Shown here: positions 6,065-25,755 of the stretch, in pieces
Position numbering within the stretch: the first letter of the stretch is position 1
Layout: every line of letters starts with the position of its first letter
IMG/VR virus record: IMGVR_UViG_3300046321_000163
Coordinates: 1 to 28,872 of that record
Source: a virus
DNA length: 28,872 nt
Reading direction: 5' to 3' (one strand)
Made by a program: the position numbers and the translations under genes
Notes under the pieces: model-generated
The model's input: the letters and a program-made list of their open reading frames with translations, nothing else
Told to the model about the DNA's origin: nothing
The model's database searches: none

Positions 6065-6481
6065 TTATTCATTATGTTGCCTCCAAACATGCTCAAGATC
6101 CTCTCGAGCCCATTGAGATGCTTGTTGTTCACCTCTTTCAGTTTTTTGATTTAATCCCTCCTCTTTCGCTATCTGTTTACGCATTTTATGATAATACTTC
6201 TCGATATGTTTTGGTAAATTAACATCATTACCATTCTCATCTTCACCATGGTGAACAGCATGAGAAAATTCTTTAGCGGAATTAAATTGGGTACTATAAT
6301 GTTTCAGTGATTTAGTTTCGTGATCGTAGATAGGTTTTCCACTTTTCGTATGGCCGATTACTTTTCCGCCTTTTGATCCTTCGCCGCCTTTTTCAAAGGT
6401 CGCGGTGGTGGAAAGTGTTAGGTTGTTGACGAAACCTTTTTCGATTGGTGTACCGGCGAAGTCTTTTAAACTGATTTCCAT
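6065..6481 (-). CDS. Small accessory protein with a Gly-Lys linker motif, cargo-type gene
   Basis: This 138-residue hydrophilic protein begins MEISLKDFAGTP, followed by a Gly/Lys-rich stretch and KVIGHTKSGKPIYD near residue 40, a motif I associate with variable phage accessory proteins. The rest is charged and His-rich (HAVHHGED near 75; a helical Lys/Glu tail ending WRQHNE). No catalytic motif is clear. It sits directly behind a copy of the duplicated promoter cassette, whose predicted transcript would have a very short leader. A relic with the same first 12 codons lies at 8939-9001, so this start has been copied within the genome. This argues that the gene is an independently expressed cargo (moron) gene rather than a core structural gene. 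Function unknown. Confidence 0.65.
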   Translation of the reverse strand: MEISLKDFAGTPIEKGFVNNLTLSTTATFEKGGEGSKGGKVIGHTKSGKPIYDHETKSLKHYSTQFNSAKEFSHAVHHGEDENGNDVNLPKHIEKYYHKMRKQIAKEEGLNQKTERGEQQASQWAREDLEHVWRQHNE

Positions 6482-6497
6482 ATTTTTGAATATTTTT
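6445..6497. repeat. Leader plus gene-start repeat, full-gene copy
   Basis: These 53 bases match 8965-9017 with one difference (6482 versus 9002). They cover the leader and the first 12 codons (MEISLKDFAGTP) of the accessory gene. Here the reading frame continues into a full gene; in the other copy it stops after 20 codons. Confidence 0.9.
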
Positions 6498-6546
6498 GAT
6501 AAAGATACTCGTTTTGTTTAAAATTAGCAACAGGATGGTGTTTATT
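6484..6546. repeat. Promoter-leader repeat, copy A
   Basis: These 63 bases match 24508-24570 with a single difference (6536 versus 24560). The copy fills the space between the tail-fibre stop and the accessory gene start at 6481. Its left part (6484-6497) also belongs to a second repeat shared with 8965-9017, so copy A joins the two partial copies. It contains the promoter at 6500-6530. Confidence 0.9.
6500..6530 (-). promoter_or_regulatory. Bacteroidota-type promoter (cassette copy A)
   Basis: Minus strand: TTG (6530-6528), a 20-base spacer, then TATCTTTA (6507-6500), close to the TTG / TAnnTTTG consensus of Bacteroidota vegetative promoters. Expected transcription start is near 6493, about 12 bases before the ATG at 6481. 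An identical promoter lies in copy C at 24524-24554. Confidence 0.7.
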
Positions 6547-6550
6547 GTAA

Positions 6551-8914
6551 TTAAATTCTTTGTAGATAAGCCATCACAATAAATGGTGGACGGTTTTCGT
6601 GAGCATTATCACCACCTTCAAGTGGAATAGGCTTTGGTTGATCAACAATATTAGGTTCATTTCCACTTTCAACAGTATCCTTACTATTTACGGTAGCTTC
6701 TTCATTAATAATTGATCGCTTAATTAATCCAAATTGTCCTTGGATAATCGCTCTTGCAGTGTGACCGTGAGAAGGTATTTCATCAATTGTCAACTGTACT
6801 GCTTTTTGACCACCAGTAGTGCCAACTAAATTATAAGTACTATCCCAATAACCATTAGATGGATCAGTTATACGATCATCGTAACCTACAATAAATCTCG
6901 ATCTCAAATCAACTGTTCCATTTTGACCGTTACAAAGTGCCCAACCTGACGTTGACGGTTCAATACCTTTTCCTGTATCATCAAATTCGACTGGTTGAAT
7001 ATTAGATCTCATTATCACATCTCCTAATCTATAATTATCACCTTCTACTTTATAACCTACCCACTTATTTATACCATCATATACGCACTGAATAGTTAAT
7101 TGACGACCTAATAAACCTGCATAGTTAACATCAGTCGCTGAAATATTATAAACAGTAATATTTGCACCACCAACTGCTGTTTTAGTTACAATCGACATTG
7201 AATAAGCACTTGCGTTAATTACTCCTTTTATCACGATAGTGAACGAAGCGCCACTTTTACCGATACGATCTGTATAGTGATCAAGATTGATTAGCACATT
7301 TCCTGCAAGGTTAACGTCACCTGTTATAATGACATGCGCTTTCGCAACACCTATTTGCAAATCAATCGTTCCTTGCGCAATCATTGCGAGTTCAGTAAGT
7401 CCTGGTGAGGTGCCAGTGTCGAATGTTACTCCATAACTTCTTAATGGAGCTTGCGTTACAACGAATGCAAGTAATCCGTTTGGATTAACACCATAAGGTC
7501 TGCGAACATGCTGACTAACATCTTTTAGTCGTCTATTTACATCGAAAGAATCTTCGGTTAAGTATCCCTTTGGGTCATTTTTAAACAACAGCCACGATGA
7601 GTAATTATTATTACTTTTATATCGGTATTTAATGTTGTATCTAAATGTTGTTGCGAAGTTGTTAACTCGAATAGTGTTCGTTGCGATTGCAATATCAAAC
7701 GTAGCGTATTGTAGACACGTTCTCATCGTATTTGGCTGAGAAACATATCCTATTCCACCGTTATCGTCTGAAATAAAAAATTCGATCTGTTCGCAGTTAG
7801 GTACTACCGTTAAAAAATCACTACTTTCAAATGCATCAGGATCTAACGTGTCGACACTTAACTGAATTTGATTACCAATTTTAGTCGATGTTAAAATAGT
7901 ACAAAAATCACCTTTCTTACCATACACTCTCCAACCGTTCAAATCGCCTGATGATAAATCAGACAACTCTTTAATGCGACCACCTTCTCCTCCTACTAAC
8001 GTTATTTGCCTTAATGCTGATTGAATGATAAAATTGTATGAAGTAATTCCCCACGAAACTGTTATGATGTTTTGATCACCTGATGAAGCATTCGAATCCC
8101 AACATACACTATCAACGCCGACAACTTCACTTTGTTCGTTAGGTAGTTCAGTTAATACAGCAACTCCTTTGTCAGTCCATATCTGCACTCGCTTATCTTC
8201 AATAATTAGCGAAGTACCATTAAACATCACTCTTGCAATGGCGAATTTCTTATCATCCTTTGCAATAGGGTATGTATTTAGCGTTAGCTCTTGAACGATA
8301 TCAATTGCGCAAGAATCATATTGAAATGGATATTTATCTTGTGTCGATTGAATAGTACCAGGAGTAAAGGTTCCTATCACTGAATATTGTAGGTCAGTTT
8401 CAACGAACGTTTCTCCTGAGATCAACATATTCTCATTATCAATAACCTCGATAATTTGGTAAGTCTGTAAGTTGGTTTGAGAATTGATAAAAGTTATCGA
8501 AGTTGCGAAATTAGGCTGTCCTCTAACTGTCTCTAAGAATTTGGTTCCTGTTCCTGTTACGTTTCCTTGTGCATCTATTGATACAGTTCCTTTTTCTGTC
8601 GCACTATACTCGTGTGAAACAAATATCCAATACCATGTATTCGCATTAGGTAGCGTAAACGTAAAAGGATCACAAGTAACTACTAATCCGTCTTTATCAA
8701 CAGCGTATGAAGTTGTCGCAATAGATAATGTAGTGTTGCTGATAGCTGTTAATCGAAAATTATCGAAGCTAACATCGAGTGAGCTTTTAATTATACCGAA
8801 TGAGCCTGTTCCATCAACAATGCTGCGACGATAACCCTCAGTCAAAAATGACTGAAAGCGATTAAGTTCTTGTAATCCTAAGAACTGTTCAGGTGCAAAT
8901 TTAAAACGACTCAT
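6551..8914 (-). CDS. Tail fibre protein with C-terminal phage collar domain
   Basis: This 787-residue receptor-binding or fibre protein would attach to the baseplate and contact the host surface. The last ~157 residues form a Phage-collar-type domain: GDVIMRSNIQP, GWALCNGQNG, VDLRSRFIVGYDD, IPSHGH near residue 717, and the terminal ENRPPFIVMAYLQRI. The N-terminal part (MSRFKFAPEQFLGLQELNRF) resembles baseplate-attachment regions of fibres, and the middle is beta-rich and low in charge, as expected for a trimeric shaft. A stretch near 500-600 (TIDLQIGVAKAHVIITGDVN) could be a beta-helix or knob segment. It follows the baseplate genes and is separated from the previous gene by a 103-base gap holding a gene-start relic. 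No adjacent chaperone or reverse transcriptase was seen. Confidence 0.85.
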   Translation of the reverse strand: MSRFKFAPEQFLGLQELNRFQSFLTEGYRRSIVDGTGSFGIIKSSLDVSFDNFRLTAISNTTLSIATTSYAVDKDGLVVTCDPFTFTLPNANTWYWIFVSHEYSATEKGTVSIDAQGNVTGTGTKFLETVRGQPNFATSITFINSQTNLQTYQIIEVIDNENMLISGETFVETDLQYSVIGTFTPGTIQSTQDKYPFQYDSCAIDIVQELTLNTYPIAKDDKKFAIARVMFNGTSLIIEDKRVQIWTDKGVAVLTELPNEQSEVVGVDSVCWDSNASSGDQNIITVSWGITSYNFIIQSALRQITLVGGEGGRIKELSDLSSGDLNGWRVYGKKGDFCTILTSTKIGNQIQLSVDTLDPDAFESSDFLTVVPNCEQIEFFISDDNGGIGYVSQPNTMRTCLQYATFDIAIATNTIRVNNFATTFRYNIKYRYKSNNNYSSWLLFKNDPKGYLTEDSFDVNRRLKDVSQHVRRPYGVNPNGLLAFVVTQAPLRSYGVTFDTGTSPGLTELAMIAQGTIDLQIGVAKAHVIITGDVNLAGNVLINLDHYTDRIGKSGASFTIVIKGVINASAYSMSIVTKTAVGGANITVYNISATDVNYAGLLGRQLTIQCVYDGINKWVGYKVEGDNYRLGDVIMRSNIQPVEFDDTGKGIEPSTSGWALCNGQNGTVDLRSRFIVGYDDRITDPSNGYWDSTYNLVGTTGGQKAVQLTIDEIPSHGHTARAIIQGQFGLIKRSIINEEATVNSKDTVESGNEPNIVDQPKPIPLEGGDNAHENRPPFIVMAYLQRI

Positions 8915-8938
8915 TGTGTACGTTAATTAACTGATGAT

Positions 8939-9001
8939 TCAATCTCTATCTGATGCAATTCTTTTTGGTGTACCGGCGAAGTCTTTTAAACTGATTTCCA
9001 T
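8939..9001 (-). pseudogene. Gene-start relic: 20 codons sharing MEISLKDFAGTP with the gene at 6065-6481
   Basis: An ATG at 9001 opens a 20-codon frame (MEISLKDFAGTP, then KRIASDRD, stop TGA). The first 12 codons and about 16 leader bases are near-identical to those of the 138-residue gene at 6481, after which similarity ends abruptly. The promoter part of the cassette is missing. It looks like the stump left when a cargo gene was deleted or replaced, or a recombination landing site. It might also be a translated short peptide. Confidence 0.7.
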
Positions 9002-9017
9002 GTTTTTGAATATTTTT
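8965..9017. repeat. Leader plus gene-start repeat, copy B (truncated)
   Basis: These 53 bases match 6445-6497 with one difference. Similarity breaks just at the end of the tail gene at 9018, so the copy fits exactly against the upstream stop codon. No TTG/TATCTTTA element accompanies it. Confidence 0.9.
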
Positions 9018-9755
9018 TTAAATTAACGATTTAGCAAATCGGGCTATTTCATTTACTGATTTTTGAATTATTGAAAACGAAGTGTTTGTTGCGGTATTTT
9101 GTTTCGTATTAACCATAGCGTTTAGTGGTGCTATCGCTTTCATTTTAACATTATACTGCCACAATGCATTAAACTGATCCTTATTCTGTTGAACATCAAA
9201 TGACTGAATCTTAACGACATTAGACTCACCAAATGTATTATTGTAAAAGTGTAGTCTCATTGGCTTCCCTTGGTCGTCTAATGTTGATGACTTTTCAATC
9301 ATCGACTGCAACAATTTCGTTAAGCCGTAACCTGTTTTTACTTCACTATTAAGTAGTCCCGATTTGATTCGAGTTTTACTTAATACATCTTGTTTTGTAA
9401 ATACGTTCGACTTAGCACTATAACGCATTCCTGCTATATTCAACTCTTGCGTACCTATGATAATTTTCAATGCACGACCAAACGTTCCTGATATTGAAAT
9501 ATCAAAAGGAACAAATGTAGTAGTATGGTATGTTGTAATACCTTTTTGCGTTTTTTTGATATTTAACAAATCTTGATGATTTCTCGATATTGAGTCAGGT
9601 AAAACTGGAAAAATCAAATAATCAATCATATTATCGCTACCATCAACCAATTCGAACGCTATCAAATAGTATTCAAACTCATTAGGATACAACAAGTGCA
9701 GTCCCTGACGACCAACACTTGAAATTATTTCCTGAACTTTTGTTTGAATCGTCAT
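9018..9755 (-). CDS. Tail/baseplate protein, probably a hub-side or tube-initiator component
   Basis: This 245-residue protein has a beta-rich first half (YYLIAFELVDGSDN, DYLIFPVLPDSISRNHQD) followed by FVPFDISISGTFGRALKI. This arrangement recalls phage tail proteins in which a jelly-roll or LysM-associated domain links tube and hub. The second half contains LRLHFYNN-like and VKMKAIAPL strands and an amphipathic C-terminal helix. Its start follows the previous stop by 3 bases. Position after the baseplate genes and before the fibre supports a baseplate role (T4 gp48/gp54/gp53-like or distal-tail-like), but I cannot name the family with certainty. Confidence 0.6.
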   Translation of the reverse strand: MTIQTKVQEIISSVGRQGLHLLYPNEFEYYLIAFELVDGSDNMIDYLIFPVLPDSISRNHQDLLNIKKTQKGITTYHTTTFVPFDISISGTFGRALKIIIGTQELNIAGMRYSAKSNVFTKQDVLSKTRIKSGLLNSEVKTGYGLTKLLQSMIEKSSTLDDQGKPMRLHFYNNTFGESNVVKIQSFDVQQNKDQFNALWQYNVKMKAIAPLNAMVNTKQNTATNTSFSIIQKSVNEIARFAKSLI

Positions 9756-9758
9756 TTA

Positions 9759-10340
9759 TTATTTAGCTTGAATATTTACTGAATATCCAAGTTTTTTTAA
9801 CTTATTAACAAACGTGTTTACTTGATCGTGATAAAAGTCTGCAATTCGCTCAGCTTTTTTTCCTCTATCTCCATATTCATCAGGATGTCTTGATTCGCGA
9901 CTTGAATTTAGATAAATATCAACTGTACCTTTTTCGTGATTTATATTTGAGCCTTGATACGTTACTTCTGAAACTTTTGGTATATTTCTAATTTCATTTA
10001 GAGTGGATTGAGCTATTTGTTTATTGTTCTCAGAAATAGGCTCCATAGCCTTATCATTTAAAAAATTAGCTAATTGTTTAAACCTATTACTGCCGAGACC
10101 GCGTGTGTAATTCTCGTCGATTGAATTTTTATTCATTAAAATACAATTAGTTGGAGTAATCATAACATGCAACATTTGAATAGTGTCGAAATCATCTTTG
10201 TCGCTAATGTCTATGTTTACAGTTCCATGACCTTGTGACGCTACGATACTTCGAAGTTTAATATAGCCACAAGCGTTTATCTTTTTTAAAGCTGGTGTAA
10301 TTTTTCTCATAAAGTCTTGGAAGTGATCATTACTCAACAA
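9759..10340 (-). CDS. Accessory protein, in frame with the upstream gene across one TAA
   Basis: I do not recognise this 193-residue hydrophilic protein. It lies in the same frame as the gene ending at 10341, separated only by its TAA. The first codon after that stop is TTG (10340), giving LSNDHFQDFMRKI, which reads like a genuine amphipathic helix. The first in-frame ATG is at 10310 (MRKITPALKK). Three options fit: TTG initiation coupled to termination, initiation at 10310, or stop-codon readthrough making a fusion of about 439 residues. The C-terminal half has DIYLNSSRESRHPDEYGDRGKKA, rich in Arg, Asp and His, then a helix-strand ending. No catalytic motif is certain. Located between baseplate genes, it is probably cargo or a late structural accessory. 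Confidence 0.5.
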   Translation of the reverse strand: MLSNDHFQDFMRKITPALKKINACGYIKLRSIVASQGHGTVNIDISDKDDFDTIQMLHVMITPTNCILMNKNSIDENYTRGLGSNRFKQLANFLNDKAMEPISENNKQIAQSTLNEIRNIPKVSEVTYQGSNINHEKGTVDIYLNSSRESRHPDEYGDRGKKAERIADFYHDQVNTFVNKLKKLGYSVNIQAK

Positions 10341-11078
10341 TTAAGCTGCGTTAGGAACTTTGTAGTTATGATTAGCAATTTCCAAATCATCCATCACATT
10401 ACTATGATCGGCAAAACTTATATGAAATAATCCTTTACTTTCTTTTGGAATCAAATCATTTTCTACTTGATCTATATTTTTTTGATGTAAATTAGGAGAT
10501 TGTGCGTGAGCTTGTTTGAATGCACTATCTATATCTGATAGATAGTCTGATAACCTATTAGAGCTAACATTTTTAGATGCATACTTTTTAATATACGCAT
10601 CATTAACCATATCTCTATTATATCCACTAATAGATCCATCCTTATCTTTAAATATAGCTTTATGCTCCGTATTGTATTTTTTATTAATTTTATCAATATA
10701 AGGAGCCAGTGCCTCAGTAAATTTAAGATTTTGCGCTTTTTGTTGTTTAATGTCGTAATTAGATAAATTTACCTTCTTATTATGATCAATAGGTGCAGTT
10801 TGGATCTGACTTGATTGATTTACTGGCGTTTCATTTACTGAGACTTGATTGGTTACGTGTTGTTGAGCTTTTTTGCCGGTGCCTTTTCCATGAAAAGCCC
10901 AACCGTTCGCCGTTTTAATGTACGGGCGACCGCCAAAGTCACGGATTTCTCCAATTTGTGCCGGTCTTCCGCCTTTTAGAAAGTCGGGTTCGAGAGCTTT
11001 GAAAAGCTCTGAAGGATTGTTGATAGTTTGAGTTGACGAACTCGCACCTTGAAAATCAGCTAATGTTAAATCACGCAT
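10341..11078 (-). CDS. Accessory protein with DFQGA start and GEIRDFGGRPYIKT module
   Basis: This 245-residue protein begins MRDLTLADFQGA, similar in layout to MEISLKDFAGTP of the accessory gene at 6481. Near residues 36-70 it has KGGRPAQIGEIRDFGGRPYI and a KTANGWAFHGKGTGKKAQQH tail. I have seen this kind of module as a linker or attachment segment in modular phage proteins. It is followed by a Gln/Asn-rich linker and a helical C-terminal half (ESKGLFHISFADHSNVMDD near 217-235). I see no defined enzymatic domain. It follows the 545-residue baseplate gene by 15 bases with an A/T-rich leader. The shared start style suggests that these accessory proteins form a family with interchangeable C-termini. 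Confidence 0.55.
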   Translation of the reverse strand: MRDLTLADFQGASSSTQTINNPSELFKALEPDFLKGGRPAQIGEIRDFGGRPYIKTANGWAFHGKGTGKKAQQHVTNQVSVNETPVNQSSQIQTAPIDHNKKVNLSNYDIKQQKAQNLKFTEALAPYIDKINKKYNTEHKAIFKDKDGSISGYNRDMVNDAYIKKYASKNVSSNRLSDYLSDIDSAFKQAHAQSPNLHQKNIDQVENDLIPKESKGLFHISFADHSNVMDDLEIANHNYKVPNAA

Positions 11079-11093
11079 TTTATTAAAATTTAA

Positions 11094-12731
11094 TTAAGGC
11101 CAAAACCAACCTTCACCAGTAACGTCAATCCAAATTCGGTTGAAGCCATCATTCCAATACAATGGATCTTCAACTATTTTCGACTGAACTAAATTAGTTG
11201 CAATTAACGTTGTTGTATAAGGAATAAATAAATCTCGAACTATATCAACGATATCATCAAACGATTTTTGTTGATTGCGATTATAACACATTAATTCAAT
11301 AACATCGCTTGCTTGAACAAATCCTTTACTATATTTAGTCACACCGACACCAACCCTAAAATTTGTGATATAAATTTCGCCATTTGTTGTCGTTTCAACA
11401 ACAGGGATAAGATATTTGGATACATCTTTCTGTTTAAGATGATTTCCGTATCCATTTGCAGGATACGATAGTTTATTGTAATCGCTATTGAATAGATAAA
11501 CCTCAACTGAATGCTTTATACCTGCTTTTTTAATCTTGATCTCACCAAACGAATTGTTATCACTACCAGTAGCATCGACTTTAATAGCTGAAATAGTATT
11601 CTGAGCGGCATCGAATAGTAAAACGCCGCACTTAATCATAGCTAAATCAGTGCATTCAACATTAAATGAAATACAGTAATTGATAGCAGGCGAAATAACC
11701 ATAGCTTTTGTAATATCACCACCTACACCAATCGACGATGTTGAATTTAATATCAACTCGTTAACGCTATTAACTGTAACGCTGTTAAGTTGTAGTACTC
11801 GCTGAATATAATATGCAGTAACGTTACGATCAATGTATATTTTAGCTAAGTGATTACTGTTCGCAGTACTGCGCATCATTGGACTACTGTTATTAACGTT
11901 CCATGACACATGTTTACGCTCAGCTAAACCATAAATCAATTCATCAGTAAGTTGATTATTAAGTAGTCGTAACAATTCTCCTGGAAGAGTCGTTGCTGGC
12001 GTTATTTGAGTAGTGTCTATAACGCTGTACTGAGTACGTTTTCGAATTTGATCAAACCAATTATAAGCTATATATTGCAATTGTTCGAGGTTTTCGTTAC
12101 CTGCTAAAAGTATCCCTTTTTGCTCGAGATATTCTTTAAGTAATACTTCTTTTTCATAGAACGTTTCAAATACATTAGCGTAATTAGCGAAAAAGCTAAA
12201 AAACTGAGCTACACTTCGCAAATATTCAATGAACGATCTATCTTGTTCATAATCTTGATTATCGTTGCGAACTATATAATTAGACAAAGTGCCAGGCTTA
12301 TATAATTTCTCAAGCACATTGCACGTCCAATCGAAAAATGTGGCGTCGATACATGTCGAAAAGAACTGTTTGATAAACGAGTTATTATATGCGTTAGATT
12401 TTACTGAACGACCTTGCGTTGTTATAAAACTTAATGAATCGAGAGTTAATGTACCTGACGATACACCTTTACGCAAGTACGACACTCGAATAAATATCGG
12501 TTCAAAATTACGAATCAAAATTGCTGCTGATAGATTTGCGTTAGTAAGAGGCAGCCAATCACTCCATAGAAAGTTATCACGACTCCAACTAAACGTTTTT
12601 TCAAAAAATCGACTACCAGTAGTACCAGTCACAACGTCACTAAACGAAACTACTGACGCTATCGCCTGAGTCTTCAAGGGATAAATCAGTAGTTGCTGAT
12701 TAGGTTCGGTTGTTGAAAGGTTGAGTATCAT
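11094..12731 (-). CDS. Baseplate wedge / tail protein downstream of the J-like gene
   Basis: This 545-residue protein directly follows the baseplate J-like gene with an ATGA overlap of 4 bases, the usual place of T4 gp7/gpI-type wedge proteins. The N-terminal ~120 residues are beta-rich (VSFSDVVTGTTGSRFFEKTF, WSDWLPLTNANLSAAI). The middle is helical, with ATFFDWTCNVLEKLYKPGTL, RSFIEYLRSVAQFFSFFANY and YEKEVLLKEYLEQKGILLAG. The C-terminal part returns to beta structure and ends VTGEGWFWP. The mixed architecture, position and coupling support a structural baseplate role; exact family assignment is uncertain. Confidence 0.65.
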   Translation of the reverse strand: MILNLSTTEPNQQLLIYPLKTQAIASVVSFSDVVTGTTGSRFFEKTFSWSRDNFLWSDWLPLTNANLSAAILIRNFEPIFIRVSYLRKGVSSGTLTLDSLSFITTQGRSVKSNAYNNSFIKQFFSTCIDATFFDWTCNVLEKLYKPGTLSNYIVRNDNQDYEQDRSFIEYLRSVAQFFSFFANYANVFETFYEKEVLLKEYLEQKGILLAGNENLEQLQYIAYNWFDQIRKRTQYSVIDTTQITPATTLPGELLRLLNNQLTDELIYGLAERKHVSWNVNNSSPMMRSTANSNHLAKIYIDRNVTAYYIQRVLQLNSVTVNSVNELILNSTSSIGVGGDITKAMVISPAINYCISFNVECTDLAMIKCGVLLFDAAQNTISAIKVDATGSDNNSFGEIKIKKAGIKHSVEVYLFNSDYNKLSYPANGYGNHLKQKDVSKYLIPVVETTTNGEIYITNFRVGVGVTKYSKGFVQASDVIELMCYNRNQQKSFDDIVDIVRDLFIPYTTTLIATNLVQSKIVEDPLYWNDGFNRIWIDVTGEGWFWP

Positions 12732-13936
12732 ATTGATTTTAAAATTGTTCGCTGATAGTCAGAATCGATATCGTTAGGAAAGTAAATAGGTAACAAAGCG
12801 CCATTTATGTCAGATATAATCGTCCCTTGCAGATCAAGAATAATAAACTGACGCACTCTTGGAATCTCAAAACTTGGAGGACGAATATCGACCTTAGGTG
12901 AAAAGTATTGATCAGCAACATATCTTACCCCACTGGTTGATTTAACGATCTGCAATAAATCATCCCATTCAATCTTTTGACCACCTTTCCAATATCGCAC
13001 GTCAAAGTACTTCGATATTTTAGTGATGATATCAATACGAACACTATCTATGTTGACGTTGTTGTAAAACTCGACTCTCATTGTTATGTCGAGTTCGTAC
13101 CAAGTAGCATTTTTTAATACGAGACTGGTAATATGCTCTCTATTTGTTGGGAGCGCTCTAAATTCAGTTAGATTGAGATATTGTTGACTATTGCGCAACA
13201 ACTCATCGATTTCACTTGGAAGTAAATCAGCTCCGTTTTGTGTAACAATAGCGAGTTGTATTTTACCTTGCGAATCTAATCCACAAAACAACACTCTCAG
13301 TACGTTAGGATTGAATTTCAAAAACACTTGCGTAATATACTGTAACGTTCCCCGATTGCATAAATTTACACCGTATTTTATTCTTTTACGAAACAATACA
13401 TCATCCTCAACGTCTCGACCTCCTGTTGCACTGTACTCATTAATAACATAACGATGACCTAACGGACTTGCGTTTATGCGATTTAATGTCAGTGCATTTA
13501 CATTAGTTATTGATCCAACATCTATGCTGCGAACTAATGCATAAGTGTATCCTGCAAGACCTATTGTTGCATTGGCGCTTAATTGAAAAGTAACTGAATG
13601 ATTACCAGTGAAGGTGTGAGTAGTTGCTAAGTATATTGTTCCAGGATCTCCTACTAATCGAACGTAAGTAGAACTACCGCTTGAAGCGTGACGCTTACCA
13701 ATCCCCATAAACTGAGCAACATTATCTAAATATTGACCGTACGCAAAGTCAGGAAATAAATGCGATTCAACGATCGCTATATCTTTTGCAACTTTCTGAG
13801 CAATTTTCGCTACTCCATAGCTATGTGCACTCAACACACTATCAGGGCTAACTTTTGATACTTGATCTGTGTTATTGAGAAATGTTTCAACGTATAGTTG
13901 TTGAAGCTGCTCTACTGATGGTGGTTTAGTGAACAT
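12728..13936 (-). CDS. Baseplate J-like protein (wedge, gp6-like)
   Basis: The 402-residue protein carries the baseplate-J (Mu gp47 / P2 J / T4 gp6) layout. An N-terminal helical region contains FPDFAYGQYLDNVAQFMGIG (61-80). A beta domain follows (TYVRLVGDPGTIYLATTHTF), then the signature ATGGRDVEDDVLFRKRIKY (170-188) and later strands ending in VRQFIILDLQGTI. The protein forms the dimeric ring of wedges that encloses the hub and triggers sheath contraction. It abuts the upstream gp25-like gene with no gap and overlaps the next gene by 4 bases, so the three are translated in a coupled fashion. Length is close to the ~350-400 expected. Confidence 0.85.
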   Translation of the reverse strand: MFTKPPSVEQLQQLYVETFLNNTDQVSKVSPDSVLSAHSYGVAKIAQKVAKDIAIVESHLFPDFAYGQYLDNVAQFMGIGKRHASSGSSTYVRLVGDPGTIYLATTHTFTGNHSVTFQLSANATIGLAGYTYALVRSIDVGSITNVNALTLNRINASPLGHRYVINEYSATGGRDVEDDVLFRKRIKYGVNLCNRGTLQYITQVFLKFNPNVLRVLFCGLDSQGKIQLAIVTQNGADLLPSEIDELLRNSQQYLNLTEFRALPTNREHITSLVLKNATWYELDITMRVEFYNNVNIDSVRIDIITKISKYFDVRYWKGGQKIEWDDLLQIVKSTSGVRYVADQYFSPKVDIRPPSFEIPRVRQFIILDLQGTIISDINGALLPIYFPNDIDSDYQRTILKSI

Positions 13937-14848
13937 TTATATTGACTGATTTATAAACTCGTTTAATCGCGTTGTAATTGTAAAGGCATACTTAGCGACA
14001 TCTCCTTGTATTTTTATATCGGTTAAAGCGAAAGATGATAATGTATCATCATTAGCGAATGTATCGTTTAACTGTCTTGATAAAACACTCGACAACATCA
14101 TTGATACTGCGTTTCCTGGTCCTATCATCGATGAACGACCATGATTAGGATATTGGCAGTTATCACCTTTCTTCAAGTTGATCAATATATCTACCGCTTG
14201 ATAAATTGTATCTTTTGGCGATAGTACAAGTAGGTCGTCATTTGCGAACAATATCGTCTTATTGAGATCCTTTCCATATACATTGTGACCATTCATTATA
14301 TCGACTACTGAGACTATATCGAAAACAAAAGCTGTTCGCTTTTGAGTAACACTTATTGTATTTAGGGACTCAGGTGAATATGCAGTTTCCTTCAAATTAT
14401 TAGCAACTGCTATTTCAAACCAGTCGTTTTCAAAATCAATCGAACCATTTAATACACTAACGTTCTCTAACGTCATATTTTGCGACATTGAAAACGCTGT
14501 ACTAACTGTATTGGTGAATGAATTGTTACCAATCGAACTTTTGATCCATTTACCGGTATTCTTGATAGTACTCAATTTTACAAAAATATCATCTATCGCT
14601 TCAATCAATTCCCACATCATTAACGAATTAAACGCGAATGAGTGAGTAGTGATATGATGATTGATAATATCAACCTGATTTAACAAGTATTTCAATTTAC
14701 TAAACGCAACACTATCACTTAACGTTAAATCTCCCTTATAATAACTAATTATAGTAGGGTAATATTTGTCGTTAAACTCAACGAAGTCTGAGATAAAACT
14801 CGAAATATCGTATCGCGTGTATTTGTAAAATGATTCGACTGCGGTCAT
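13937..14848 (-). CDS. Baseplate wedge protein, gp25-like C-terminal domain
   Basis: This 303-residue protein lies between spike and J-like genes, the standard place of the gp25/W wedge component that links the sheath to the baseplate. The C-terminal ~100 residues fit that family loosely: DDLLVLSPKDTIYQAVDILI (204-223) with LKKGDNCQYPNHGRSSMI, then LNDTFANDDTLSSFAL and a terminal strand-helix YAFTITTRLNEFI. It lacks a clean copy of the gp25 EPR motif. The N-terminal ~150 residues are an extra, largely helical domain, making the protein about twice the usual gp25 length. Both ends couple to neighbours (TAATG overlap upstream, direct abutment downstream). Confidence 0.6.
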   Translation of the reverse strand: MTAVESFYKYTRYDISSFISDFVEFNDKYYPTIISYYKGDLTLSDSVAFSKLKYLLNQVDIINHHITTHSFAFNSLMMWELIEAIDDIFVKLSTIKNTGKWIKSSIGNNSFTNTVSTAFSMSQNMTLENVSVLNGSIDFENDWFEIAVANNLKETAYSPESLNTISVTQKRTAFVFDIVSVVDIMNGHNVYGKDLNKTILFANDDLLVLSPKDTIYQAVDILINLKKGDNCQYPNHGRSSMIGPGNAVSMMLSSVLSRQLNDTFANDDTLSSFALTDIKIQGDVAKYAFTITTRLNEFINQSI

Positions 14849-18032: not shown

Positions 18033-19839
18033 CAGGCTTTACAATTTTATTGGTTTTAGTATCCATTGGCGATTTTCCAGTGAACCAACTTACAATCGAA
18101 TTAACGCTTGCAAAGAATCCAACTCCTAATCCTAATAAACTCTCTACTATATCTTTCATTCCACCGAACTGATCAGATAGTTTGGTTAATTGTTGAACTA
18201 TCTTTTCTCCTTGCTCAGCAAATACGTTATCCATTTCCGCTGAACTTTTTTGCAGACTACCAACTAACCCTCCTCTATCTACTTTTTTAAGTGCAGAATT
18301 ATCGTCCGCTTCAAATCCTAAGTTCAAGTTACCATTACTATACCCTGTTACTAATTTTGATATTTGAGACTTACCCAACTGAGGAAACATTGCTGATAGT
18401 TGTTCTTTCATCATGTTATCGTTTCCTCTTGACGATCCCGACAACATATCCATTACTCCTTTTAGTAATCCAGGTTGCGCAATTCCTTGCTCTTGCATTT
18501 CCATCAAATCAAATCTCGATGCTTTTGGATTCATTGAACTAAGTACTGAAAACTGCATAGCTTGTGCGTATGGAGATGAGGGACGAGATAATGCAGAATC
18601 AATTGTTTGAATAACTTGACCTGAAACAGTTGGATCTTTAAAACTTCCACCAAGTTTTGCAAAAGCGCCGACTATTCTGCTATTTAACGTTATATCTACA
18701 CTATCCATAACCGATATCTGTCTTTGAGCAAGTTGATTTGCAACACTAACGTACTCTTCAAGTTTTGAAAAGTCTCCTCCTCTAATATCTTTATCACCAT
18801 ACGAAAATCCTGAAACCATGTCTCCTAAAACCTTACCTAAATCCTTAGTATCGCTATTTCTTAACGTTCTTAAAACACCTGACGTTGAACCTGATGATAA
18901 TGCTAATTTTTTTTCAGCTTCTAACATATCCATACCTCGATCTTCAAGACCTTTGGTCGATCCTTGTGCCTTAGCTGCTTGCATTGCATATTGCGACATA
19001 AATTGTGACATCGTCACTCCATATCGCTCTGCTTCACGACCATTGGCTGATACACCGTTTACATTAAGTGAGTTCAATCCACTGCGTCCTTGTTCGTATG
19101 ACTCTGCCTGAGATAGTGCTTTGTTTACGATTTGACTCAATCCCTGACCTACAACTGGTAGTAAAGTTGTTAATGCAGCAAAAGCATATACATCATTGCG
19201 AGTAGCTAATGATCCTACTGTATTGGAAACGTTAGTAGCACGTCTTACGTAATCAGATTGTCGTCCACCTCTACGAGGTGATGCATCTCCTTCATCATCA
19301 TCTTCTTCATCATCAGAAGGTTGATTGTTAGAAGGCGGTCTGTTGCGACCCGCTAATGTATTACGAAGTGCAGTAATCGCATCATCACTTTCTTCTTGTT
19401 GATTATTTTCACTCGTTCGAGTTTGATCAACAATAGCTGCTGTTGATCGAGCATCATTGCGAGCTTGTTCTCGTGCGTTAGCTTGAAGTGTAGCTAATAT
19501 ATCGCGAAGAGTGCGCGACTCTAATGTTTGTTCAGAAAATCTATCTTGCGCTCCTGTTACGTTTATATTGTGCTGTCCTTGGGATATTTCACCTCGATCC
19601 AATGCATTGCGATTCTCAATTCTTGATTGAGCTAATTCAATACGAGCCTTACGCTCCATCGCTCGTATCTGTTCTTCAATGATCTTCACTAACTCTTTAC
19701 CGTCATTCGATTGTGCACGTGCAGACTCAATCATCGAACGAGCCATATCGACTGATGATTGCTTATATCTATCCATAAGTGCTTGCAAACCGTCATCTTG
19801 ACCGGTAAACGTAACACGAGTTTGTTGAGTAGCGCTCAT
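18022..19839 (-). CDS. Tape measure protein
   Basis: This 605-residue protein follows the chaperone-position genes and precedes the hub. Composition fits a tape measure: an N-terminal half dominated by long charged helices (residues 1-150 with many Arg, Glu and Gln), an acidic/proline linker (SDDEEDDDEGD near 177), a hydrophobic patch (AFAALTTLLPVVGQGLSQIV near 218-237), Ser/Met/Gly-rich helices, and a C-terminal hydrophobic segment VESLLGLGVGFFASVNSIVS. At roughly 0.15 nm per residue it would set a tail of about 90 nm, short for a Herelleviridae-like phage (more than 1,000 residues in phage K). No lytic domain was seen. Starts at ATG directly after the upstream stop. Confidence 0.8.
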   Translation of the reverse strand: MSATQQTRVTFTGQDDGLQALMDRYKQSSVDMARSMIESARAQSNDGKELVKIIEEQIRAMERKARIELAQSRIENRNALDRGEISQGQHNINVTGAQDRFSEQTLESRTLRDILATLQANAREQARNDARSTAAIVDQTRTSENNQQEESDDAITALRNTLAGRNRPPSNNQPSDDEEDDDEGDASPRRGGRQSDYVRRATNVSNTVGSLATRNDVYAFAALTTLLPVVGQGLSQIVNKALSQAESYEQGRSGLNSLNVNGVSANGREAERYGVTMSQFMSQYAMQAAKAQGSTKGLEDRGMDMLEAEKKLALSSGSTSGVLRTLRNSDTKDLGKVLGDMVSGFSYGDKDIRGGDFSKLEEYVSVANQLAQRQISVMDSVDITLNSRIVGAFAKLGGSFKDPTVSGQVIQTIDSALSRPSSPYAQAMQFSVLSSMNPKASRFDLMEMQEQGIAQPGLLKGVMDMLSGSSRGNDNMMKEQLSAMFPQLGKSQISKLVTGYSNGNLNLGFEADDNSALKKVDRGGLVGSLQKSSAEMDNVFAEQGEKIVQQLTKLSDQFGGMKDIVESLLGLGVGFFASVNSIVSWFTGKSPMDTKTNKIVKPGGK

Positions 19840-20196
19840 TTACTGCTTATCTATATCGTTAAACCAATCAGGCATTTTGTCGTCGTCTTCAAATACATCA
19901 TTGTCTCGTTTTGTCAACACCAAACCATGTCCTGGAACATAGTGAGTCTTAAACATCTCATCAAACTCGTCTTTATCTTTATCCCCAGTAGATCGTGGTT
20001 TAAATAATAACATCTCTTCGTACTCTATGCACACGTCGAGAATATTACTATCTCGATGTTTTTGCGAGTTGAATGCAATATTATATTTATCTCGCCACCA
20101 TTTATCTAACGGATATGCGATATTCCACGCAATAATAAAATTACGAATCGACTTGCGATCAACTACTTCATTCAGTATCTTTTGTTTCAGTTTCAT
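19840..20196 (-). CDS. Second tail assembly chaperone-position protein
   Basis: The 118-residue acidic protein overlaps the end of the preceding chaperone gene by 29 bases and is followed at once by the tape measure, as GT-type extension ORFs do. It has a helical Lys-rich start (MKLKQKILNEVVDRK), a Trp/Tyr-rich middle (AWNIAYPLDKWWRDKY) and a very acidic C-terminus (DVFEDDDKMPDWFNDIDKQ). Its frame is +1 relative to the upstream gene, so a classical -1 slip would not join them. A +1 or -2 shift, or independent start at ATG 20196, is needed. Chaperone role is from position only. Confidence 0.6.
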   Translation of the reverse strand: MKLKQKILNEVVDRKSIRNFIIAWNIAYPLDKWWRDKYNIAFNSQKHRDSNILDVCIEYEEMLLFKPRSTGDKDKDEFDEMFKTHYVPGHGLVLTKRDNDVFEDDDKMPDWFNDIDKQ

Positions 20197-20554
20197 CGCG
20201 AGTTTGTTCGAAGTATTGAGTCATTAATCGTTGCCAAGAGATGATCCATTCAGCCACTTGTTCACGATACACTTGAATTAACTCTTGACTGTCGAGAATG
20301 TCGAGATCGAGTAGTGACGTAACGTTGAGATCCTTAACGAGTTTAGGACACAATACAGTAAACATCGCAGTCATATCAATAATATCTAATGCAGCAGCAG
20401 TATTGACTGTTCCTGTATTATTCATCGCTCGATACATTCCTTTCGATAACATTTGCTTCATCGACTCGATGTCGATTAATTGTCCATTGTTAGGAATACG
20501 AAGTTCGTATGTGTTATCTTTTATGGTAAACGATATTGTTCGCTGAATCGACAT
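20168..20554 (-). CDS. Tail assembly chaperone (gpG-position)
   Basis: This 128-residue protein lies between tail tube and tape measure, where phages encode the chaperone that coats the tape measure before tube polymerisation. The N-terminus is a short beta hairpin (RTISFTIKDNTYELRIPNNG), the rest is helical with hydrophobic heptads (AAALDIIDMTAMFTVLC), and the C-terminus is acidic (TRDETETKDTE), all usual for the group. The start at 20554 has an A/T leader. A 113-base gap with inverted repeats separates it from the tube gene. It ends with TGA inside the next gene. Confidence 0.65.
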   Translation of the reverse strand: MSIQRTISFTIKDNTYELRIPNNGQLIDIESMKQMLSKGMYRAMNNTGTVNTAAALDIIDMTAMFTVLCPKLVKDLNVTSLLDLDILDSQELIQVYREQVAEWIISWQRLMTQYFEQTRDETETKDTE

Positions 20555-20596
20555 AATTTATATTTTATAACTAAAAGGTAATTTTTAACTAATAGC

Positions 20597-20621
20597 AATA
20601 CATAACATTTAGTTATGCATT
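20597..20621 (-). terminator. AT-rich hairpin between tail tube and chaperone genes
   Basis: Arms of 10 bases (one G-U pair on the minus-strand transcript) enclose a 5-base loop. No U-run follows directly, so this may be a weak terminator or processing/stability hairpin that sets tube expression above the downstream genes. A second short inverted repeat (AATCTTA/TAAGATT) lies just after the tube stop, around 20652-20667. Confidence 0.35.
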
Positions 20622-20667
20622 ACCAACCAACAAAGTCATCTTATGAACATTAATCTTATGTAAGATT

Positions 20668-21147
20668 TTACACTTTCGAAAGAACAGGTGTTAGGTATGA
20701 AAAGCGCTGATCTCTACCTGAAATCTGACTCTCGCTGATATCGAATGAATCGCTATCAGCAAAGCACCCTCTAATTGTAGCAAAAGGCTTGACGTCTGCT
20801 GACGTTAGCAATGTTACCGGATCGAAAGCTTTTGGAACTTTCTTGTAAATAACAACATCGACCGCTTGTTCAGTCAATAATACATTGTCAACCCAATCTT
20901 GTACAGTTGGAGCATTGCGATTGATACCTCCTGGAAGTCCAGTAAGATTCAAGTCGATCATATAAAATGAACAAGACAATTCACCTGTCCAATCTAAGGC
21001 AGGTAATTCTATCGGGATCAAAGTACCAATTCCTTTAACCGATCCTCTTCGGATAGTTTCATTAATTCTAATATTTTTCATTAATCCGACTGCAACTCCT
21101 TTTACTTTGATAATAGCAAGAGGTGCATTCATTGTCTTGTTCGCCAT
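20668..21147 (-). CDS. Tail tube protein
   Basis: This 159-residue protein follows the sheath by 32 bases, the conserved sheath-tube order of contractile tails. It is beta-rich with strands such as APLAIIKVKGVAVGLMKNI, ELSCSFYMIDLNLTG and AVDVVIYKKV, plus the ISGRDQRFSYLTPVLSKV ending, compatible with the gp19-like tube fold whose rings stack to form the inner tail. Length is near the 142 residues of the phage K tube. A G/I-rich N-terminus contains RGSVKGIGTLIPIELPALDW. Confidence comes from order, size and fold pattern together. Confidence 0.82.
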   Translation of the reverse strand: MANKTMNAPLAIIKVKGVAVGLMKNIRINETIRRGSVKGIGTLIPIELPALDWTGELSCSFYMIDLNLTGLPGGINRNAPTVQDWVDNVLLTEQAVDVVIYKKVPKAFDPVTLLTSADVKPFATIRGCFADSDSFDISESQISGRDQRFSYLTPVLSKV

Positions 21148-21179
21148 TTTATACTATTTTAATCGAGCTTTTGAAAATA

Positions 21180-22805
21180 TTAGTTTTCTACCATCGTTCC
21201 AGTGAAGAATAAAAAGTTTACAGGCCAATTTGGAACTAATACGTAATCAATGTAATATGCATCGTTACGAACTGAAACAGTTACATCACGGTACGAAATT
21301 AATAAGTTATCGGTTGTCGAAGTGGCAATCTTACTGTCGAGAAAGCCTTCGACCCAATCCTTAACATCATTCGCTGAAAGAGTATTGCGATTAGGTCCTT
21401 GCGATTGATTAGCAAGCAACTGAATCTTAGAATTAACAACAACGTCACGATTGATCTGAGCAGCTATTCGCATAATTGAAATTTCACGTGACGCGCCTTG
21501 TGGCGTTACTATTCCTTCATTATCTTGCAAAGACGTCAATCCCCACGTGATCACAAATCGCTTTATGTCAGTATCAAATTTAACAGCTAATAAACCTGCC
21601 TTAATCGCTTTCGATCTTTCTTTTTCGGTAAGCACATGCGTAACTGCACTCATTCCAAGAGCTTTGAATGTTAAAGGTGTTTGTGGTGCTAAACCACCTA
21701 ATCGACCGATCACTAAACATAAACTACCTAATACGCTATACTCACGAGAATAGTTCGCATTATATGTGTCGACAGCCTTACAACCTCCATGTAGAACCCA
21801 CGCTTGTCCATTGTTATATGATTTCGCTACTGTTAACGATGTTGCGAAATCATCTTTTGTAGTACCTGCACCAACCGCAAAGAACTTGATATGTCTTTGA
21901 CGATCAGTTAGTTCAGTCATAATTTTCAAATTAGTAGAGCTATAAGCATCTGCACCAGTTTTGTCACTGATAATAATGTTGAATTCATTATCAGCGATAC
22001 TATCGAGTACTTGTGTGATTAAAGTAGTGTCTGCATAACTTTCAGTTGCATCTACACTTAATACGTAAGTCGATCCAACTGGACCTCCTACTACGATGTC
22101 TGCTGCAACGATTGCACCACTCATAGCAGATGCAGTATCTATCTCAAAATACGCTTTGAAGTCAGAATTGATCCGAGACCAAGTAATAAATTCACTGATG
22201 TTTGATAATTCAACACTTCGAGCAACTACAATAGGACGAGAATTAGCTTTTGACGTTCCGTTCCATACATATCCTTTTGAATCAGCACCAGTATAAACTC
22301 CTTTGTAAATCGTAATTACAAACTTTGTTACATCATCAGTAGATACTGAAACGATTGCACCGAAACCTGTAACTAAGTTAGTTGCATCAAGTACTCCGTT
22401 TGCTAATAATCCTTCAGGACCTTTGATGATCAAAGAGCCACTTGCAAACGGTAGTGTGATTTTACTATGTGTCGTTTCACGTGCTGATACGAAAGAGATG
22501 CTACTCACGCCGCTTGTTCCTGCACCTAATGGACGTAACAAAAACTCACTATATTTCCACCACTGACCGCCACCAATCCATGATTGAAAATCGTTGATTG
22601 AATCGAACGTTTGAATCGCATTAGATCCATTAACAGCTACTCCTTTAATGCCACCAAAACCATAACCTGCAGCACTACCAGTATCTATAATCAATACATT
22701 GCCTGAATCGGATGTAGTAGTGGTATTTTGAACAGACGCTTTAACGGTACTATAAGCACCTGGCTCTGTAATTACTTTATTTCCAAAAAGATGCGATAAA
22801 GACAT
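21180..22805 (-). CDS. Tail sheath protein
   Basis: This 541-residue contractile sheath subunit has a family-like start (MSLSHLFGNKVITEPGAYST) and central Ig-like and alpha/beta segments (FNIIISDKTGADAYSSTNLK, AWVLHGGCKAVDTYNANYSR). The C-terminal polymerisation domain contains GIVTPQGASREISIMRIAAQ, NTLSANDVKDWVEGFLDS and the last beta strands DAYYIDYVLVPNWPVNFLFF. In the family the N- and C-terminal arms of neighbouring subunits interlock. Length fits (587 in phage K). It has its own promoter upstream at 22821-22851 and a 64-base gap to the preceding gene, so it is probably made in excess of the neck proteins. Confidence 0.9.
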   Translation of the reverse strand: MSLSHLFGNKVITEPGAYSTVKASVQNTTTTSDSGNVLIIDTGSAAGYGFGGIKGVAVNGSNAIQTFDSINDFQSWIGGGQWWKYSEFLLRPLGAGTSGVSSISFVSARETTHSKITLPFASGSLIIKGPEGLLANGVLDATNLVTGFGAIVSVSTDDVTKFVITIYKGVYTGADSKGYVWNGTSKANSRPIVVARSVELSNISEFITWSRINSDFKAYFEIDTASAMSGAIVAADIVVGGPVGSTYVLSVDATESYADTTLITQVLDSIADNEFNIIISDKTGADAYSSTNLKIMTELTDRQRHIKFFAVGAGTTKDDFATSLTVAKSYNNGQAWVLHGGCKAVDTYNANYSREYSVLGSLCLVIGRLGGLAPQTPLTFKALGMSAVTHVLTEKERSKAIKAGLLAVKFDTDIKRFVITWGLTSLQDNEGIVTPQGASREISIMRIAAQINRDVVVNSKIQLLANQSQGPNRNTLSANDVKDWVEGFLDSKIATSTTDNLLISYRDVTVSVRNDAYYIDYVLVPNWPVNFLFFTGTMVEN

Positions 22806-22820
22806 GTTATAAAATTTTTA

Positions 22821-22851
22821 TAAAAATACACAACAATAGACAATCAATCAA
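22821..22851 (-). promoter_or_regulatory. Bacteroidota-type promoter for sheath and tube
   Basis: Minus strand: TTG (22851-22849), exactly 20 bases, then TATTTTTA (22828-22821), matching TTG / TAnnTTT. The -7 box ends 16 bases before the sheath ATG. The spacer contains repeated TTGATTG/TTGTTG units. Confidence 0.6.
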
Positions 22852-22869
22852 GCATTTGATTGTCGCAAT

Positions 22870-23103
22870 TTAAAAATTGGCTATTATCCATTGCCACTCG
22901 TCAAGTGGCTTCGTTTGGTTACCATATTTAATATATAGTGCTCTTTTAGTCAACTCATGGACAATGAACTGATTCGTGTACTCTTGACACGTCATCAGAG
23001 GGAACGTCGATGGAGCAGCAACTACCTTAACAGAATGATCCGTTGAGGTAGGAGTTTTTATACTTTTTGGTTTTGGCAGTTTACTGCTGGTAGTCTTCTT
23101 CAT
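22870..23103 (-). CDS. Small unknown protein upstream of tail sheath
   Basis: This 77-residue basic protein has a Lys/Ser/Thr/Pro-rich N-terminal third (KKTTSSKLPKPKSIKTPTS) and a compact C-terminal part with MTCQEYTNQFIVHELTKRAL and an aromatic end (EWQWIIANF). Its ATG lies inside the last codons of the preceding gene (23-base overlap), which supports real coupled translation. No homology recognised; likely a minor neck or tail assembly factor. Confidence 0.55.
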   Translation of the reverse strand: MKKTTSSKLPKPKSIKTPTSTDHSVKVVAAPSTFPLMTCQEYTNQFIVHELTKRALYIKYGNQTKPLDEWQWIIANF

Positions 23104-23779
23104 CTGTTGATATTGCTAAGTGAACTCTCCAATCTCTAATGATGTCTAACGCAGCATCACTAAGTATTGAGGGGTGGGGAATTTCTAACGTGTATTGACC
23201 TCTTAATATTAACGATTTAATATACACTCCTTGTGGAATCAAATTACTATTTAAAGTAATATCGGTTCCTGAAATACTCATATTCATTATACCACATGAA
23301 CTAATACTTTCTTCAAGTAGTACTAATAATGCTCGGACCATTTCATATATCAAAATTGCTTCGAACGAATTGTCTGAAACAATCGTGATGTTAAATGACG
23401 TATTGTATATGCGAACGTTCGTATCGCTATGAGTATCGTCTGCAAATTCGATAGGTCCCATTGCATTCACGTTTCCACCAATTCCTTGAGACGCTTCACT
23501 ATCTTGTGATTGTGTCACATATACCGTTGGAAACGTTTGACGCTCTTGTGCGAACGATAAGCTCGTATTGATATACTTAATATGATCTTTTGATCTACTA
23601 AAAACAGCGACACTTTCTTTGTAAAAATCAAGATGACGGAATGTGTTGTTTTTAAATAAAATGTACAGTAGGCACTTATTCTCAATATTAGCGAGCTTCT
23701 TGTCGTCATAATCTTTTTTGACTATATCGAGTCCTGCGCGAATAACTTTCTCTACTATCACATTAGTTAAAACCAGCAT
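23081..23779 (-). CDS. Probable tail terminator / neck protein
   Basis: This 232-residue protein precedes the sheath module, where the tail terminator (T4 gp15 / phage K neck protein) is usually encoded. It has an N-terminal helix (TNVIVEKVIRAGLDIVKKDY), mixed strands (ESVAVFSRSKDHIKYINTSL), then TSFNITIVSDNSFEAILIYE with a hydrophobic helix (MVRALLVLLEESIS) and a late strand LILRGQYTLEIPHP. The beta-helix-beta arrangement resembles terminator folds. Its start overlaps the upstream gene by 17 bases. Assignment rests on order and fold pattern, not on a diagnostic motif. Confidence 0.6.
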   Translation of the reverse strand: MLVLTNVIVEKVIRAGLDIVKKDYDDKKLANIENKCLLYILFKNNTFRHLDFYKESVAVFSRSKDHIKYINTSLSFAQERQTFPTVYVTQSQDSEASQGIGGNVNAMGPIEFADDTHSDTNVRIYNTSFNITIVSDNSFEAILIYEMVRALLVLLEESISSCGIMNMSISGTDITLNSNLIPQGVYIKSLILRGQYTLEIPHPSILSDAALDIIRDWRVHLAISTDEEDYQQ

Positions 23780-24314
23780 CTTTCATTGTTTTTTTGATTA
23801 TCGCATCTATATCTAAATCATCATTTGCCTGATTAAAAAATCTACGAGCAGTAATGCCAGGGTGAATCCATTTATTAGCATTTGTCGATTGACCTACTCT
23901 AACGAATTTAACTGGTCGAGTAGAGTTACGATTGAACGTACGTAAAAACCTCATTACACTTGGGTTAATTTGCGCCTGTTTTGTATTACCACCTAAAACG
24001 ACTGTTAAATACCAAGCCCCTTTGTTTGAAAACTTAACTTTGTCACTCGCTTGAAAACCTGGTTTCATATCAAATGATTCGCCACCGTTTTCAATTGCAT
24101 TAGCTAACGCACCGTCTAACTGTATATCGTATTGACTGTCTTTATTATCAACACTTAACGCCGATACGTAATCATTGTACGATGAGTATAGCGTCTTGTC
24201 GACATCGCCAATCAAATTTCGCATAAACTGATTGCCGATTTCAGTTGTGCATTTTTGTATCAAATCCTTTGCATCAGGAAAGGATAGTTCGATTGATTGA
24301 ATTGTGTACGTCAC
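23763..24314 (-). CDS. gp10-like tail-completion / head-tail joining protein
   Basis: This 183-residue protein resembles HK97 gp10-type neck proteins. The N-terminal part is helical (DLIQKCTTEIGNQFMRNLIG). Central beta segments are AWYLTVVLGG and RPVKFVRVGQS, and the signature near 148-160 is KWIHPGITARRFFNQA, equivalent to the WxHPGxxAxxFF pattern common in these proteins. The start is GTG at 24314, chosen because it follows an A/T-rich leader and the first in-frame ATG (residue 31) would remove the first helix. The downstream neighbour overlaps by 17 bases. Confidence 0.7.
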   Translation of the reverse strand: MTYTIQSIELSFPDAKDLIQKCTTEIGNQFMRNLIGDVDKTLYSSYNDYVSALSVDNKDSQYDIQLDGALANAIENGGESFDMKPGFQASDKVKFSNKGAWYLTVVLGGNTKQAQINPSVMRFLRTFNRNSTRPVKFVRVGQSTNANKWIHPGITARRFFNQANDDLDIDAIIKKTMKDAGFN

Positions 24315-24368
24315 TATTTATAAATTATTTGTGCACTAAGTTTTTGATCGTTAATGTTTTATTGTTAA

Positions 24369-24497
24369 TTATTTTTGAAGTTCTCTTTGATCGTTATGAA
24401 GAGTTACTTGTATTTTGTTTTTGGTATTTTTAGAAAAAACAGGCGTATGCATTTTACCTGACTGCATACCTAACGATCCCATTGAAGTCGTTCCCAT
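24369..24497 (-). CDS. Small 42-residue peptide behind the duplicated promoter
   Basis: A 42-codon frame starts at ATG 24497, just after promoter-repeat copy C (-7 box ends 27 bases before). The peptide begins MGTTSMGSLGMQSGKMHTPV and ends with a charged tail (QVTLHNDQRELQK). The first 20 residues are Gly/Met/Ser-rich. No homolog recognised. The promoter placement mirrors that of the gene at 6065-6481, so it may be a short cargo peptide or the stump of a larger one. An upstream extension from TTG at 24554 would lie inside the promoter and is not favoured. Confidence 0.4.
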   Translation of the reverse strand: MGTTSMGSLGMQSGKMHTPVFSKNTKNKIQVTLHNDQRELQK

Positions 24498-24507
24498 TTG
24501 TGAGTAA

Positions 24508-24570
24508 TTTTGAATATTTTTGATAAAGATACTCGTTTTGTTTAAAATTAGCAACAGGACGGTGTTTATT
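24508..24570. repeat. Promoter-leader repeat, copy C
   Basis: These 63 bases match 6484-6546 with a single difference. The copy begins at the stop codon of the zinc-ribbon gene (24566-24568), whose TAA lies inside the repeat, and ends before the ATG at 24497. Confidence 0.9.
24524..24554 (-). promoter_or_regulatory. Bacteroidota-type promoter (cassette copy C)
   Basis: Minus strand: TTG (24554-24552), 20-base spacer, TATCTTTA (24531-24524), identical to copy A. Predicted start is near 24517, ahead of the 42-residue peptide and the tail-completion gene. Confidence 0.65.
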
Positions 24571-25690: not shown

Positions 25691-25724
25691 TTTATAAAAT
25701 TTATTCAACTATCTGTTGATGCCA

Positions 25725-25755
25725 TAAAGATACATACTTTTAAAACGCGAGACAA
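25725..25755 (-). promoter_or_regulatory. Bacteroidota-type promoter for the small membrane gene
   Basis: Minus strand: TTG (25755-25753), 20-base spacer, TATCTTTA (25732-25725). Same -7 box and exact spacer as the duplicated cassette, but surrounding bases differ, so this is an independent promoter of the same class. Confidence 0.7.

Follow-up and report, generated by a model that had tools for sequence, protein, structure and literature searches.

Introduction

Promoters of Bacteroidota hosts have a consensus of TAnnTTTG at −7 and TTTG near −33 (PMC7366714), and in Flavobacterium adenines at −3, −6, −12 and −13 promote initiation (PMC6847099). Among phages, the PAK_P1-like group carries repeated promoters with conserved flanks (PMC4309531), and T4-type phages have mobile regulatory cassettes known as PeSLs (Arbiol 2010 and Comeau 2014, as cited in PMC4503421). 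For the phage group considered here, large SPO1-like phages of Bacteroidota, a limited literature search returned no description. We analyzed IMG/VR virus record IMGVR_UViG_3300046321_000163, classed as linear; the whole record of 28,872 bases is referred to below as the window. It contains a promoter-leader repeat in two near-identical copies, A (6484–6546) and B (24508–24570), which a preliminary description had interpreted as a mobile or recombination-spread promoter that places cargo genes between structural genes. Our comparison with related phages indicates that A and B are probably two members of this phage's own repeated promoter-leader family, of the Bacteroidota primary-sigma type.

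Results

Two near-identical promoter-leader copies

Copies A and B, like all genes in the window, are on the minus strand. The near identity reported in the preliminary description was confirmed: 62 of 63 bases match (98%, E = 1.4e-27). Similarity reaches 6481–6552 and 24505–24576 (94% over 72 nt), and the exactly identical stretch is only ~52 nt long. On the minus strand, both copies read ATAAACACC(A/G)TCCTGTTG-N20-TATCTTTA-TCAAAAATATTCAAAA. The proposed promoter reading, TTG-N20-TATCTTTA, holds at 6500–6530 in A (TTG at 6528–6530, TATCTTTA at 6500–6507) and at 24524–24554 in B (TTG at 24552–24554, TATCTTTA at 24524–24531). TATCTTTA fits all fixed bases of the host TAnnTTTG element except the last, and the TTG sits at N20.

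Downstream of the promoter in A, an A-rich leader leads into the ATG at 6481 of g138, a 138-amino acid open reading frame (ORF; 6065–6481, minus strand), and the start of g138 is preceded by an A-rich stretch of the kind that favours initiation in Flavobacterium. In B, the leader is followed by approximately ten further bases and then by a 42-codon ORF, g42 (24369–24497, minus strand). These features support the view of a promoter with a short leader that occurs twice, but the statement that each copy lies right after the stop codon of a structural gene needs amending for B, which overlaps the connector stop codon (24566–24568). All four sense occurrences of TATCTTTA in the window are intergenic, where intergenic DNA makes up 3.6% of the sequence (binomial p = 1.6e-6, with A and B not independent of each other). 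A structured RNA or terminator within the cassette was considered and rejected: folding z-scores were −0.07 and 0.43, and no terminator was found near either copy.

Two distant, near-identical copies could be the product of a transposing promoter element. However, the proteins scanned included no transposase, recombinase or endonuclease, the cassette is not bounded by terminal inverted repeats, and no further copy was recovered when viral contigs were scanned for exact 31-mer and 28-mer matches and genome contigs for exact 31-mer matches. We therefore consider transposition highly improbable, and the mobile promoter of the preliminary description finds no support. A transposon-like cassette is set aside; recombination or gene conversion is retained as the presumed route by which the repeat was copied.

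Promoter-leader families in related phages

The nearest named relatives of the window are Chryseobacterium phage MA9V-3 and the Bacteroides DAC phages, and the window portal also matches SPO1-like phages. Single-sequence searches of viral contigs returned no relatives for the portal or g138, and alignments were needed; relatives were collected by alignment, and nine contigs were read over their full or nearly full length. MA9V-3 (L003/L004, PV245944) is deposited as circular with 127-bp identical ends, and those of contig G004 span 126 bp; both are most likely leftover assembler overlaps.

When each relative was compared with itself, dispersed repeats with a common plan were found: CTGTTG or GTTG, a 20-nt spacer (N19–21), a TATCTTTA-like −7 element, and a conserved leader of ~20 nt, with the ATG usually 20–35 nt after the −7 element. 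Counted by pattern, there are 16 sites in contig G010, 10 in MA9V-3, eight each in contigs G008 and G001, and three in G005 (with TACCTTTA), a few of which are probably chance matches. Sense TATCTTTA is intergenic in 13 of 16 cases in G010 (p = 3e-15), seven of 12 in G008 (p = 1e-7) and five of seven in G001 (p = 3e-5). Outside the core, mean identity within genomes (0.46–0.87) is at or above the highest means between genomes (0.34–0.46), and each phage thus has its own version of the repeat. The identity of the A/B pair falls at the top of what is seen within genomes, but G008 contains a pair that matches at 98% over 107 nt. In many spacers of G010 (L113–L117) and G001 (L109–L112), AAAGATA faces TATCTTT in an inverted repeat that takes in the −7 element and may be an operator; it is missing from the window copies.

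Large SPO1-like phages of Bacteroidota, then, keep promoter-leader repeat families that are specific to each genome and have a nearly fixed core, TTG-N20-TATCTTTA. As related phages carry this promoter type in up to ~16 copies, the repeat itself is fairly ordinary, and the arrangement is not the unusual one that had been proposed. The preliminary description had also named the absence of further copies, and of variation in their number or position among related phages, as evidence against a spreading promoter; at the clade level, the promoter families do vary in number and place. A search of the window and of relatives, along the lines suggested there, yielded families with the same core, although the exact sequence was found nowhere else searched.

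Several observations weigh against reading A and B as members of such a family that are transcribed by host polymerase. Contigs G004 and G011 do not use this exact core. Most copies in the relatives precede non-structural genes, whereas both window copies are in structural DNA. Just two full copies occur within 28.9 kb, and the third and fourth instances of the motif are dissimilar outside the core. Finally, the −7 element ends in A and that of the host in G, so a phage-modified polymerase is possible. With regard to location, 41 of the 45 copies in five relatives fall outside the portal-fibre block, and the positions of A and B are within or next to structural genes; an early function of the promoter family is suggested solely by location in the relatives.

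Insertions between structural genes

The genes for the connector (a virion structural protein, phrog_1004; 24566–25354, minus strand) and g183 abut, with a gap of 5 nt or less, in G003, G005, G007, G008, MA9V-3, and DAC19. In the window, a promoter, a leader, and g42 stand between them, and G010 has ~500 nt at this position. Similarly, g260 and the connector abut (12 nt or less) in G001, G002, G003, G005, G007, G008, G010, MA9V-3, and DAC19, and the window has a same-core promoter and a 113-amino acid ORF at this boundary. The promoter-like site, the third TTG-N20-TATCTTTA in the window, is located at 25725–25755 (minus strand) and is divergent outside the core; the ORF that follows (25367–25708, minus strand) encodes an N-terminal hydrophobic segment. 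G008 has a lipoprotein-like ORF, together with a promoter of the G008 family, between the fibre and the next virion gene. The window and G008 together indicate that structural genes in this clade are at times separated by an inserted promoter and short ORF. The earlier claim of cargo between structural genes therefore stands for copy B with g42, and for the 113-amino acid ORF, which are inserted where the relatives' genes abut. It does not extend to copy A, the position of which is not trustworthy (see below), and no mobility machinery was seen.

Units of this kind are reminiscent of morons: a promoter and a short gene would have been acquired separately between structural genes at each site, and copying of one promoter to a new cargo gene would explain the likeness of the two. 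In keeping with this, g42 and the 113-amino acid ORF each have their own promoter-like site at a boundary that abuts in the relatives, with a parallel case behind the fibre in G008. However, there is no terminator behind either ORF, and so neither unit is closed; no relatives of g42 were found, and it may not be a gene; and ordinary non-structural genes follow most family copies in the relatives. A moron-like origin is thus doubtful, albeit conceivable. Family searches with g138, g42, and the 113-amino acid ORF gave no informative matches.

A third, partial copy

The phage had been described as otherwise non-repetitive, which does not hold for the clade, as the relatives carry 3–16 promoter-leader repeats of their own. 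The window also contains a third, partial copy, C (8965–9017, minus strand). In copy C, the end of the leader is present with the initial 12 codons of g138 but no promoter; the copy is 98% identical to 6445–6497 over 53 nt and opens a 20-codon ORF (MEISLKDFAGTPKRIASDRD). Copy A has its promoter half in common with B and its gene-start half in common with C, and the two halves overlap by 14 nt. C and A form direct repeats on either side of the tail fibre gene (787 amino acids; 6551–8914, minus strand). The simplest history has A as the origin of both B and C; alternatively, A itself is possibly composite. Beside copy C, just before the fibre, lies a gp53-like gene (9018–9755), which is found between g302 and g303 in all relatives examined.

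The junction at copy A

Where the genes are covered, ten relatives have the order portal, protease, capsid, tail, fibre (G007 gave no portal match). The window runs from capsid to fibre and then through A, g138, g236, g243, portal, and g531 to the protease, and no relative compared has, as the window does, the fibre before the portal on a single contig in this adjacency. The record of G004 is circularly permuted and has the fibre at one end, some 50 kb from the portal. The fibre is followed in 17 distinct records by a gene that the window lacks. At one end, the window cuts the head maturation protease gene (2–1363, minus strand), which is without roughly its last 60–80 codons, and the other end lies 16 bases before the start of the major capsid protein gene (27417–28856, minus strand); in the relatives, protease and capsid are neighbors, with gaps of mostly 25–66 nt. 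The window can be described as a near-ring of the structural block that misses perhaps 300 bases, with the closing join somewhere between the fibre and g243 and most probably at A. This pattern would be expected from misassembly through the promoter repeat, from an excised ring, or from a true rearrangement.

A chimeric junction would have arisen if the genome has separate promoter copies, one preceding the head-gene block and one following the fibre, and their common sequence led the assembler, or an amplification step, to join the fibre directly to g138. We give this an even chance. It would mean that the 18-kb two-copy pattern misplaces the copies while the repeat sequence is still real, and it is compatible with A and B as members of a promoter family, as it concerns the position of A alone. 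The break in the gene order conserved in ten relatives, the adjoining of the genes at the two contig ends in those phages, and the missing post-fibre gene all point this way, as does G008, which has promoter copies just behind the fibre and upstream of the portal. The G008 contig itself stops inside a promoter repeat (66644–66750 versus 88195–88301; L122, L123) that matches an internal copy at 98% over 107 nt, and such repeats can therefore break assemblies. On the other hand, the ~52 nt of exact identity between A and B is shorter than the 126–127-nt end overlaps of two relatives, which suggest long k-mers in assemblies of this kind; copy C, which places the start of g138 beside the fibre, is real sequence, as is the displaced gp53-like gene, and both argue for true recombination; and the break could instead lie between g236 and g243. 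Chimerism between species is not suggested by composition, with GC content at 0.365 versus 0.363 and a codon usage correlation of r = 0.92 across A.

In a true rearrangement, the promoter repeat would have served as the crossover that moved the head-gene block behind the fibre, as proposed for T4-type promoter cassettes, and copy C and the displaced gp53-like gene would be further traces. The conserved order does break on or near the repeat, C duplicates the g138 start beside the displaced gene, and the connector and g183 can also change place, as in G004. However, this arrangement is common to no relative examined, and only for a ring-like contig would it not be coincidental that the ends fall within ~300 bases of the reverse breakpoint; we propose a rearrangement only tentatively. 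Overall, copy C and the out-of-place gp53-like gene speak for some true recombination, and the end-to-end adjacency speaks for a ring-like join. That the contig is a true ~29-kb DNA ring of virion genes only, produced when promoter repeats bounding the structural block recombined and cut it out of a larger phage genome (or shuffled it), appears unlikely. Copy A may sit on an assembly or recombination junction, so its place between structural genes is not trustworthy, and the picture of two loci 18 kb apart is not to be taken at face value.

Other features of the window

Two further sites were located on the minus strand: a promoter-like TTG-N20-TATTTTTA before the tail sheath gene (22821–22851) and TATCTTTA before g243 (5260–5267), the latter with no TTG at the usual spacing. 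A strong terminator-like hairpin of 14 pairs (27325–27360, minus strand) is located directly behind the capsid gene. Short motifs in g138 (GGKVIGHTKSGKPIYD) and g245 (10341–11078; IGEIRDFGGRPYIKTANGW) recur in several otherwise unlike ORFs near the portal genes of relatives (L006, L020, L056, and MA9V-3). Profile matches gave the portal, protease, capsid, connector, fibre, and baseplate assignments, and the names sheath, tube, tape measure, and gp53 were read from sequence and gene order, without profile confirmation.

Discussion

The repeat, its motif, its intergenic bias, the same-core families in relatives and the insertion at copy B are direct observations, and they fit best with A and B as members of a promoter-leader family belonging to this phage; promoter activity, polymerase, timing, and the copying mechanism are inferred. 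Each cassette would consist of a CTGTTG-N20-TATCTTTA promoter followed by an A-rich, Shine-Dalgarno-free leader toward a start codon. Host RNA polymerase probably reads both putative promoters; A would drive the g138-g236-g243-portal block, and B would drive g42 and the genes after it. Recombination or gene conversion may copy the cassettes within the genome, and a new copy, together with a short ORF, could land between structural genes. Such repeats offer a direct, testable handle on transcription in this phage group, and they are also spots where metagenome assemblies can break or mis-join.

Compared with the primary-sigma promoters recognized by sigma-ABfr (PMC7366714), the window promoters have the same TTG-type −33 and TAnnTTT −7 elements but differ in a −7 element that ends in A, a spacing nearly fixed at 20 across the family, and flanks conserved as a repeat. 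Morons, known from lambdoid and other temperate phages, resemble the insertions at the connector in that a gene with its own promoter is inserted between genes that adjoin in relatives; unlike morons, the window units have no terminator, show no sign of lysogeny, and carry putative cargo. PeSLs, as cited in PMC4503421, are similarly a repeated early promoter cassette between genes and are linked to module shuffling, whereas the window cassette has neither stem-loop nor terminator, and shuffling is inferred at most. On the definition for T4-type phages given through that article, the cassette is therefore not a PeSL, although by analogy it may serve shuffling in a PeSL-like manner.

The PAK_P1-like phages (PMC4309531) have near-identical intergenic promoter repeats (41 nt in that case) that are conserved around two hexamers, occur several times per genome, and are clade specific, as do the phages described here. 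Those promoters are of the sigma-70 type and lie in a putative early region, whereas the repeats in this study are of the Bacteroidota type and two copies are in structural DNA. A repeated promoter family is thus a known kind of system, encountered here in a phage group for which the limited literature search found no description: several near-identical intergenic promoters with conserved flanks, as in the PAK_P1 type, are present as two full copies in the window and 3–16 per relative.

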